Positions 16,973 through 19,764 of a stretch of DNA of 33,624 bases are shown here, in pieces. A program made the translations under genes and the position numbers. This stretch comes from a virus. Positions within the stretch are counted from its first letter, which is position 1. Each line of letters starts with the position of its first letter. The stretch is from the IMG/VR virus record IMGVR_UViG_3300025120_000260, positions 1 through 33,624 of that record. One strand, given 5' to 3'. The notes under the pieces are model-generated. The model ran no database searches. It had not been told where the DNA came from and saw nothing but the letters and a program-made list of their open reading frames with translations.

Positions 16973-18478
16973 ATGTTTAACAGATTTAAAAATTTATTTG
17001 CGGGTTTAGAAAGAGCGCATGGTCAATATGTGGCTGGTGAACTTGACGAAAAAGGAAAAAAGGGTGGTAAAGCTTTTATTAAAAAAGCAATTGTTACAGA
17101 TACCCTTTGGGAAAATCACTTACTTGGTAAAGATCCAAGTCTTGGCATTGTGCCTATTAATGATGATAGCGCTTGTAAATGGGGTTGCATTGATGTTGAC
17201 ACCTACCCTATTGATCATCAATCTATTGTTGATGAAATAAAAAAATTAGAATTACCTTTAATTGTTTGTCGATCTAAAAGTGGTGGTGCTCACATTTTTG
17301 TTTTTACACAAGAATTTGTACCTGCAAAATTATTAAGATCTAAATTAATTGAATGGGCCGCGGATCTCGGTCATGCAGACACAGAAGTTTTTCCAAAACA
17401 AATTAGTCTTAACACCGAACGAGGAGACGTAGGTAACTTTTTAAACTTACCTTACTTTGGTGGAGATGAATCTTTTCGATATGCATTTGCAGAGGATGGT
17501 TCTAGTCTTACCCTTGAACAATTTTTAGATGCAGCAGAAAAAATATCAATCACTAAAGAACAATTATCTAGAAAAAAAGCAAAGAGAGAAACGAATAAAG
17601 AATTAGACGATGGTCCACCTTGTCTTCAAACATTAATGGCAATGGGTATATCTGAAGGTGGTAGAGATCAAGTTTTATATCAATATGCAGTGTATGCAAA
17701 AAAAGCTTTTCCAGATAATTGGCAAACCAAAATTGGTAAATTTAATTATCAATACTTCGAACCAGAGTTATCAATAGAACAAGTCAATAAAACAATTAAG
17801 CAACATGAAAAACAAGATTATCAATACAAGTGTAAAGATCAACCAATGTGTTCAGTGTGTAATCCTGTGCAATGTAAATTACGTAAACATGGTATTGGTT
17901 CAGCCTATCAACATCAATTAACAGACTTACAAAAGTTAGAAAGTGATGAACCAGTTTGGTTTTTAAATGTTGATGGTAAACGTATCGAATTAGATACAGA
18001 TACTTTGTATGATCAAAATAGATTTAGAAAAAAATGTATGGATGTTTTAACAGAGTTACCACCACGTATGAAAGAAGTTGACTGGGCAGCTAAAATAAAT
18101 TTTTTATTAGAAAGCTGCGATATCATTCCAATGCCAAAAGAAATTAGTAAGCAAGGTAGATTTGATGAGCATCTTAGATCTTTTATGCGTGAGAATGGTG
18201 AAGCATTATCTATTGATGAAGTTTTAATTGATAAAGTTTTTACAGATAAAGAAGATATATCTTGGTTTACACTAAGCGCCCTGGAAACTTTTTTAAAATC
18301 AAGAAAATTTACTGAGTATAACGAAACACAAATCTGTGGACGTATACGAGAGCTTGAAGGAGGAAGTAAAAAGAAAAGAGTCAAAGGAGCATTGGAACAC
18401 TTATGGTACATGCCCGCAATTAATTTTGATAGTCAACCTTTACCAACGAAAGATTTAATAGATGAAGTACCATTTTAA
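16973..18478 (+). CDS. DNA primase, archaeo-eukaryotic (AEP/TOTE-type) family
   Basis: 501 aa. Catalytic motifs of the AEP fold: motif I CIDVDTYP with Asp74 and Asp76, motif II SKSGGAHIF with His107, and a third motif DTEVFPKQ around Glu138, together forming the metal and nucleotide site. Residues 287-301 hold four cysteines (C287, C293, C296, C301) that may bind zinc. The C-terminal third is helical, likely a PriCT-like or helicase-contact region. It would make primers for the polymerase encoded 2.9 kb downstream. Its start is embedded in a structured leader. No separate DnaB-like helicase is seen, so the UvrD-like or SNF2-like protein may open the fork. Confidence 0.88.
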   Translation: MFNRFKNLFAGLERAHGQYVAGELDEKGKKGGKAFIKKAIVTDTLWENHLLGKDPSLGIVPINDDSACKWGCIDVDTYPIDHQSIVDEIKKLELPLIVCRSKSGGAHIFVFTQEFVPAKLLRSKLIEWAADLGHADTEVFPKQISLNTERGDVGNFLNLPYFGGDESFRYAFAEDGSSLTLEQFLDAAEKISITKEQLSRKKAKRETNKELDDGPPCLQTLMAMGISEGGRDQVLYQYAVYAKKAFPDNWQTKIGKFNYQYFEPELSIEQVNKTIKQHEKQDYQYKCKDQPMCSVCNPVQCKLRKHGIGSAYQHQLTDLQKLESDEPVWFLNVDGKRIELDTDTLYDQNRFRKKCMDVLTELPPRMKEVDWAAKINFLLESCDIIPMPKEISKQGRFDEHLRSFMRENGEALSIDEVLIDKVFTDKEDISWFTLSALETFLKSRKFTEYNETQICGRIRELEGGSKKKRVKGALEHLWYMPAINFDSQPLPTKDLIDEVPF

Positions 18479-18799: not shown

Positions 18800-19764
18800 A
18801 ATTAAAACACTTAGATTTATTTAGTGGTATCGGTGGTTTCAGTTTAGGACTTGAAGCCACTGGTGGTTTTGAAACAGTAGCGTTTTGTGATATTGATAAG
18901 TATTCAAAAAAAGTTTTAAAAAAGCAATGGCCGAACGTTAAACAATATGAAGATATAAAGGAGTTAAATTATGGAAGACTTAAAGCAGATGGAATTGGGC
19001 CTATCGACATCATCACAGGAGGATACCCTTGCCAACCTTTCTCCATCGCAGGTAGAAAAAAAGGTGAGGAAGATCCGAGACACCTCTGGCCAGAGTATTT
19101 TAGACTTATCAAAGAACTCAGACCGTCTTGGGTTATTGGAGAAAACGTTAGTGGACACATTAAACTCGGTCTCGACACCGTACTCGAGAACTTGGAAAGT
19201 GAAGGTTACTCCGCAAGGACATTTAGTATTTCAGCTTCGAGCGTCGGTGCAAAACATCAAAGAGAAAGAATCTGGATTGTGGCGAACGCCAGACAACATG
19301 GCGGGCGGATCGAACCTACCGGGAATTCAGAAGGCACTGGACGCGGGTCACTTGAAACGACCGAGCGGTCAGCAGATACAGATACGATTAGCCGATCAAG
19401 TGAGGGAGAAGAGACTTTGGCCAACTCCGTTGAACTCGGATTGGAAAAACATGGACACAGCGAAACAACAGAGTCTATCAAAAGAGGCGAAACTATGGCC
19501 GACACCAACGTCGAGGGACGGCAAGGGAGGATACATAGGGGGCAGAATAAGGAATGGGAAAGTCAGCAGAGATACTTTGGACGTAACAGTGCAACACACG
19601 GACAACAAGAACAAAACTGGTGGGACATTGAACCCGAACTGGGTAGAGTGGCTCATGGGATACCCAATAGGGTGGACAGACTTAAAGGACTAGGAAATAG
19701 TTTAGTACCTCAGATACCTTACTTCATCGCGCAATCAATTTTACAAGTAGAGGAACAATGTTAA
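18796..19764 (+). CDS. DNA (cytosine-5) methyltransferase
   Basis: 322 aa. All core motifs are present: motif I LDLFSGIGGFSLGLE (6-20) for S-adenosylmethionine, motif IV GGYPCQPFS with catalytic Cys79, motif VI GENVSG with Glu116, motif VIII QRERIW (155-160), and a C-terminal motif X GLGNSLVPQIPY. The target-recognition region (165-270) is low in hydrophobics and contains repeated (V/L/M)A(N/D) units, which in the +1 frame spell the LWPTP repeats of the nested gene. It transfers a methyl group to C5 of cytosine, probably to protect phage DNA from host restriction. No partner restriction enzyme is seen. Its final seven bases overlap the UvrD-like helicase start. Confidence 0.93.
   Translation: MKLKHLDLFSGIGGFSLGLEATGGFETVAFCDIDKYSKKVLKKQWPNVKQYEDIKELNYGRLKADGIGPIDIITGGYPCQPFSIAGRKKGEEDPRHLWPEYFRLIKELRPSWVIGENVSGHIKLGLDTVLENLESEGYSARTFSISASSVGAKHQRERIWIVANARQHGGRIEPTGNSEGTGRGSLETTERSADTDTISRSSEGEETLANSVELGLEKHGHSETTESIKRGETMADTNVEGRQGRIHRGQNKEWESQQRYFGRNSATHGQQEQNWWDIEPELGRVAHGIPNRVDRLKGLGNSLVPQIPYFIAQSILQVEEQC
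18971..19693 (+). CDS. Gene nested in the +1 frame of the methyltransferase, LWPTP-repeat protein
   Basis: A 240-codon frame entirely inside the methyltransferase gene. It has its own Shine-Dalgarno site AAAGGAG (18957-18963), seven bases before its ATG, the same form as other genes here, although that sequence lies in methyltransferase codons. The product has TPYSRTWKVKVTPQGHLVFQ (69-88), three LW(P/R)TP units (103-107, 149-153, 175-179), and a C-terminus NPNWVEWLMGYPIGW (221-235). This motif order resembles what I recall from proteins or frames found next to phage cytosine methyltransferases (LTWK..VTP.G...FQL, GLWPTP, LNP.WVEWLMG.P.GWT). Function unknown; a partner of the methyltransferase is the natural guess. 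An uninterrupted 240-codon frame with ordered motifs is hard to explain by chance. Confidence 0.7.
   Translation: MEDLKQMELGLSTSSQEDTLANLSPSQVEKKVRKIRDTSGQSILDLSKNSDRLGLLEKTLVDTLNSVSTPYSRTWKVKVTPQGHLVFQLRASVQNIKEKESGLWRTPDNMAGGSNLPGIQKALDAGHLKRPSGQQIQIRLADQVREKRLWPTPLNSDWKNMDTAKQQSLSKEAKLWPTPTSRDGKGGYIGGRIRNGKVSRDTLDVTVQHTDNKNKTGGTLNPNWVEWLMGYPIGWTDLKD

Follow-up and report, generated by a model that had tools for sequence, protein, structure and literature searches.

An open reading frame of 240 codons, nested in the +1 frame of a phage C5-cytosine DNA methyltransferase gene, is almost certainly real and a gene, and both frames are under selection over about 720 bp of nested overlap. The window analysed here is an entire virus record of 33,624 bases; we call the methyltransferase frame alpha and the nested frame beta (Table 1). 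The open frame, its conservation and the selection on both readings are directly observed. It appears likely to us that the two products form a two-chain C5-cytosine methyltransferase in which beta is the target-recognition and motif IX subunit, a function that is inferred, as no data on translation or methylation are at hand.

The initial annotation had proposed the nested frame together with an AAAGGAG site, spacing 7, inside the methyltransferase codons, and both are present. Beta lies entirely within alpha. The motifs attributed to the nested frame, TWKVKVTPQG...FQ, LWRTP, LWPTP, LWPTP and NPNWVEWLMGYPIGW, all occur in the sequence; its LW(P/R)TP units match VAN, LAN and MAD in the methyltransferase frame, as had been claimed, and NPNWVEWLMGYPIGW coincides with GRVAHGIPNR. 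The overlap had been described as lying over the target-recognition region, which is correct insofar as it covers the variable region, but it also spans catalytic motifs IV–VIII.

Table 1. Features of the alpha and beta reading frames in the window (res., residues).
Feature	Position	Strand	Remarks
Alpha, C5-cytosine DNA methyltransferase ORF, 322 aa	18796..19764	+	PF00145 3e-43; phrog_363 2e-78
Alpha motifs I–VIII			res. 1–165 of 322 aa
Alpha motif X			about res. 300–320 of 322 aa
Shine–Dalgarno AAAGGAG, within alpha codons	18957..18963	+	7 nt, then ATG 18971
Beta, nested ORF, +1 frame of alpha, 240 aa, ATG start	18971..19693	+	phrog_1008 3e-32; frame conservation; dual constraint
Beta-N part, res. 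1–102, over alpha catalytic motifs IV–VIII; contains TWKVKVTPQGHLVFQL	18971..19276	+	
Beta unit 1, LWRTP, res. 103–107; alpha frame VAN	19277..19291	+	T106, P107 >=90% conserved
Beta unit 2, LWPTP, res. 149–153; alpha frame LAN	19415..19429	+	T152, P153 >=90% conserved
Beta unit 3, LWPTP, res. 175–179; alpha frame MAD	19493..19507	+	P177, T178, P179 >=90% conserved, 36-row alignment
Beta LNPNWVEWLMGYPIGW, proposed motif IX equivalent; alpha frame EPELGRVAHGIPNRV	19628..19675	+	
Alpha motif X region (GNSLVPQ ...), past beta end	19693..19758	+	alignment; confident helix in model

The arrangement is widespread. A tblastn search with the nested product matched 142 of 50,697 phage records. A first set of loci, made up of 8 named phage records plus the best 80 among 212 IMG/VR loci, was read in three forward frames with profiles built from those same 88 loci. 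Both proteins were found in 88/88 loci besides the window, the nested one always offset by +1 from its partner, and the intactness of this frame in homologues, proposed initially as a check, was borne out throughout the first-fetched loci. The +1 offset also holds in all 54 distinct loci (window included) that remained after removal of nine partial loci, one with alpha in two pieces (L060) and those more than 85% identical in alpha. A search with the alpha catalytic part returned at least 591 loci, and the best 80 all carry beta in +1; they are close relatives, 78–99% identical over that part, and some contigs are shared with the first set. Among GTDB genomes, 75 of the best 80 of 345 loci, a set with several near-duplicates, are clearly nested; the remaining five gave no motif X match (L180, L193), contain a stop (L185), are split (L238) or gave no N part match (L239). 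Under stricter profiles motif X was also not detected in 2/8 named phages (L003, L007), 2/80 IMG/VR loci (L053, L069) and 3/80 loci from the catalytic-part search (L094, L095, L122). The stop in the bacterial locus (L185:3153-3221) falls in the alpha frame between the variable region and motif X, with beta open; this break may be a sign of decay, an error or an intermediate on the way to the split form.

Of 212 loci, 182 have a Shine–Dalgarno core of at least 4 bases ahead of a candidate start of beta, compared with 13% of 4981 start codons in other frames, the former figure being flattered because the best of several candidate starts was taken per locus. Openness of the frame was assessed by keeping the methyltransferase protein fixed and shuffling codons among synonymous positions (2000 shuffles). 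The nested frame of the window has 0 stops, against a mean of 10.1 in the shuffles, and was open in 0/2000. P was below 0.01 in 52 of the 54 distinct loci (window included), with the other two at 0.0125 (L073) and a non-significant 0.19 (L084); the test is independent for the window only, since the other 53 loci were found through the nested frame. In a further nested locus (L331) the test over the core alone was not significant (0 vs 1.9 expected, P 0.10). Scored with profiles trained solely on loci below 50% alpha identity, real betas reach 120–279 bits, and the real beta exceeded all 20 permuted versions in each of 12 loci tested of the 54. The permuted sequences average 21–83 bits with a maximum of 119 bits, and part of the beta likeness is therefore inherited from alpha.

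Selection on both frames is seen at fourfold degenerate sites of alpha. Between the window and one relative (L010) these sites differ at 1/99 positions in the overlap and 6/24 outside. The analysis was extended over 212 loci, 30 of which, without a recognised core boundary, were excluded from the overlap categories. In the closest divergence bin, fourfold change was 0.149 in the 5′ flank, 0.045 in the core part of the overlap, 0.032 in its variable part and 0.127 in the 3′ flank; the corresponding values were 0.416, 0.162, 0.128 and 0.375 in the second bin, 0.593, 0.265, 0.262 and 0.629 in the third, and 0.724, 0.526, 0.365 and 0.716 in the most distant. Relative to the flanks, the overlap changes approximately 2–5 times less across the four bins and 3–5 times less in close pairs, except that its core part is just 1.4 times lower at the greatest divergence. 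The constraint on synonymous sites, which the initial annotation had named as a further check, is met in all four bins. Among 305 pairs with 70–98.5% alpha identity and enough sites, the fourfold rate was lower inside the overlap in 280 and higher in 25 (e.g., L019–L021, 8/66 vs 1/32 outside); these pairs share history and are not independent.

The two readings are not conserved equally along the overlap. In the two closer bins, alpha is better conserved than beta in the core (0.971 vs 0.949 and 0.879 vs 0.809), and beta is better conserved than alpha in the variable region (0.910 vs 0.858 and 0.653 vs 0.571). In the two distant bins, aligned on alpha, beta does not exceed alpha in the variable region (0.398 vs 0.399 and 0.325 vs 0.362). 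Both readings had been supposed to be constrained over the target-recognition region; fourfold change is indeed lowered there, but the VAN, LAN and MAD units of the alpha frame look like a shadow of beta.

Alpha is a PF00145 protein with PCQ and ENV motifs, whose residues P78, C79, Q80, E116 and N117 are invariant in 111 rows. An AlphaFold2 model built on 111 sequences has a confident catalytic domain (residues 1–165, block pLDDT 74–98) and a confident final helix, and superimposes on M.HhaI with Z 24.5 over 190 aligned residues (rmsd 2.0). Residues 171–300 are modelled at a pLDDT of about 45–51 per block and 80% of the variable segment consists of polar or charged residues, Gly or Pro, which suggests a disordered link, with the caveat that low pLDDT is not proof. 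The best local profile alignment between alpha and canonical enzymes stops after motif VIII. By prediction only, alpha seems to have no ordered target-recognition domain (TRD) and no motif IX in the same chain. PADLOC gave only methyltransferase labels for alpha among the matches listed (25 of 61) and none for beta.

Beta matches PHROG 1008, "DNA methyltransferase", over residues 13–238 (E 3e-32), which answers the initial suggestion to search the 240-aa product against protein families; it has no Pfam family above the cut-off and no NCBIfam family. Its structural model is weak (pLDDT 63, pTM 0.34), with better-modelled stretches at about 51–90 and 111–160 and partial order in residues 41–95 of the N part. 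Neither Foldseek nor VIA-align gave a credible structural match for this model; short Foldseek alignments to DNMT1 (22–23 columns, probability 0.20–0.25) were not counted. Profile comparison by hhalign with four canonical methyltransferases produced no match (E 0.81), and a Pfam scan of seven second or fused ORFs of split loci and one beta found no methylase match. L220, P222 and W224–M229 of beta are invariant in 111 rows, the invariance of WVEWLMG being due in part to loci having been fetched by that motif. The surrounding motif LNPxWVEWLMGYPxGW has a counterpart just before motif X, in one frame, in single-chain relatives. We propose it as the motif IX equivalent, on the grounds of its position and these relatives and without a sequence match. 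The recognition module probably belongs to beta and not to alpha, because beta is better conserved in the variable region of close pairs and alpha is predicted to be disordered there.

Natural variants of the locus were found among 13 further named phage records, picked from a spread list of 50 of the 1019 that match the alpha catalytic part. Three are single-chain (Mycobacterium phages Phasih and Silvy, Gordonia phage Phinally), three split (Mycobacterium phages Nyxis and Familton, Streptomyces phage Lilbooboo, each annotated as two "DNA methylase" genes), two nested (Synechococcus phage Yong-M4-211 and Rhizobium phage RHEph18) and five canonical (L332, L334, L335, L337, L338). In the single-chain genes (L330, L340, L341) a single ORF runs in canonical order through the core, the LPTP units, a motif of the AFxEWMM type and motif X, and the C-terminal half of beta aligns to their stretch between motifs VIII and X (hhalign 97%, 5e-11). 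A +1 ORF over the core of these genes resembles part of beta (L330:1502-2077, 98 bits; L340:1766-2281, 56; L341:1787-2221, 55); whether it is a gene is undecided, because stops in the +1 frames of these three are not significantly depleted.

The split form consists of an N ORF and a second ORF in which beta is fused to motif X. Fetching with the fused ORF of L238 gave, among the best 80 of 329 loci, 36 split, 37 nested and 7 incomplete ones. Beta is in the +1 frame of the N ORF in 31 of the 36 split loci, is not so in two (L270, L272), and three have no N part; the match to motif X is weak (16–19 bits) in seven of the 36. In L238 itself stops interrupt the alpha frame along the variable region, with beta staying open and continuing into motif X, which would fit beta being the working frame there. 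We lean, without strong conviction, towards an old and widespread class of phage C5 methyltransferases whose recognition module, LW(P/R)TP units plus motif IX, moves between frames, lying in the catalytic frame in single-chain members, in +1 and fused to motif X in split ones, and wholly nested in +1 in the rest. In the nested form dual selection would act over about 720 bp, the module working in one reading and giving an unstructured link in the alternative one. As part of this same reading, target specificity may depend on how many LWPTP units are present, a number that varies.

The initial annotation had offered the nested product as a partner or regulator of the methyltransferase; we favour the partner, and nothing was found that favours a regulator. 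That beta is a separate regulator or inhibitor, or an unrelated protein, instead of a subunit needed for methylation would accord with its fold and profile matching no canonical methyltransferase part. We nevertheless regard this as improbable, given that its C-terminal half aligns between motifs VIII and X of single-chain enzymes, that split relatives have it joined to motif X and that alpha seemingly has no ordered TRD.

Little support remains for a programmed +1 ribosomal frameshift after motif VIII that joins the beta module to the catalytic chain, instead of or besides a separate beta. Single-chain relatives do unite the same modules in one frame, and a +1 shift after the core would land in the nested frame. 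However, the +1 frame is also constrained over motifs IV–VIII, upstream of such a shift (the closest-bin core value against its 5′ flank), and the Shine–Dalgarno cores before most candidate starts, even if these are the best of several, would be expected for separate initiation.

The five canonical genes bear on whether an open frame could arise passively. Their +1 matches to beta do not exceed 39 bits, and the four that were inspected for it (L332, L334, L337, L338) carry an in-frame RK(L/M)TPxEC...QGFP motif. In three (L334, L337, L338) the core +1 frame is stop-free, with 0 stops against 5.0–5.7 expected, and has 5, 24 and 7 stops after the core; an open core frame alone is therefore weak evidence. 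A constrained small +1 gene hidden in canonical methyltransferases was considered and rejected, as the single pair L334/L338 has no fourfold depletion (13/38 in the core vs 11/27 downstream and 2/16 upstream), and the open frame was left as a shadow. That beta as a whole is merely an untranslated shadow of the conserved methyltransferase protein is scarcely tenable: those three stop-free cores do give 30–39-bit beta-profile matches, but they lose the open frame past the core and the one pair compared is not depleted, whereas nested loci are depleted over the whole overlap and their betas score far higher.

Returning to the two-chain methyltransferase, we hypothesize that alpha, read in frame 0, would provide a catalytic chain with motifs I–VIII, a long disordered link and motif X, and that beta would be translated from its own Shine–Dalgarno start in the +1 frame, internal initiation being inferred. 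Beta would supply the target-recognition module with its LW(P/R)TP units and the motif IX equivalent, and the two chains would assemble as one active enzyme; assembly is likewise an inference, and no complex was modelled. Such an enzyme would methylate phage DNA, with beta selecting the site; both the site and the recognition role of beta are putative.

The genes around the methyltransferase in the window encode a primase, a UvrD-type helicase and a family A polymerase, and the families recognised in the 28 ORFs scanned, of 47, include terminase, holin, SNF2-helicase and endonuclease VII. Because no restriction-nuclease family was recognised in these 28 ORFs, the methyltransferase is likely an orphan protective enzyme, and methylation would probably evade host restriction, a benefit to the phage that is inferred. 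At the bacterial loci, a scan of 129 neighbouring ORFs (141 minus those of duplicate loci L187–L190, L201 and L225) revealed no restriction nuclease among 25 of the 77 Pfam families, those being mostly replication, integrase and other methylase families. A primase-like gene with an AEP-TOTE domain (8e-13) is located just upstream of the methyltransferase (window 16973–18478), and one was found near a bacterial relative (L170) too.

Existing annotations capture this arrangement only partly. The nested product resembles PHROG 1008, but the label of that family is silent on a +1 reading in another methyltransferase gene. Just one ORF of the two is annotated in 7 of 8 nested named records, and the second subunit may therefore be missing from many phage annotations; the remaining record, Paenibacillus phage Tadhana, has both frames annotated as DNA-cytosine methyltransferase. 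Long same-strand genes that are nested completely and for which selection has been measured in each of the two frames are, to our knowledge, rare. Since the two products are probably halves of one enzyme, dual coding and subunit co-evolution can be studied together here in many phage lineages, and the single-chain, split and nested forms offer a natural series for testing the origin of such an overlap. A table of P. larvae phages, in the portion of the paper available, lists two DNA-cytosine methyltransferase products, gp61 and gp62, and does not mention nesting there (PMC6070908). Our literature search did not find the nested phage gene described, with subscription literature mostly out of reach.

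A different kind of gene within a gene is the ShiLan domain, presented in the available part of its description as an HNH gene hidden in the other frame of a phage methylase gene (PMC11855218). According to that excerpt it is an inserted homing element and, unlike beta, not a part of the methyltransferase. Two of our loci (L060:789-2345 and L197:1144-2774) recall that insertion, as an HNH-endonuclease-like stretch (QAHHxDYN...WxCQKCHHxWHKN) breaks up their alpha near motif IV; the break in L060 is exactly at GGFP/CQP.

A precedent for the two-chain reading is M.EcoHK31I, which belongs to a restriction-modification system and in which an alternative frame within the large-chain gene encodes the small chain. 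In the window, too, the large chain has motifs I–VIII and X, as in M.EcoHK31I-type enzymes, and the small chain lies in an alternative frame; in contrast to the restriction-modification setting, no restriction-nuclease family was recognised in the window ORFs scanned. As far as the accessible sections of the sources go, M.EcoHK31I (YGGCCR) is a two-polypeptide C5 methyltransferase with motifs I–VIII and X on the large chain and only motif IX on the small one (PMC3404938), and has been termed naturally split (PMC3439449). Its TRD is predicted in the large chain in the same partly available text (PMC3404938), whereas the LW(P/R)TP module of the window is in the nested chain. Those sections describe M.AquI (CYCGRG) as another two-polypeptide enzyme, whose second ORF contains the variable region and motifs IX and X (PMC3404938). 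On that description it resembles the split relatives (L238, L250, Nyxis), with motifs I–VIII in one ORF and the rest in a second, and differs from the window in being divided through the variable region with motif X on the small chain, as motif X of the window is on the catalytic chain. A two-chain C5 methyltransferase is already known from M.EcoHK31I; what the present loci add is breadth, measured dual selection and a recognition module that may move between frames.
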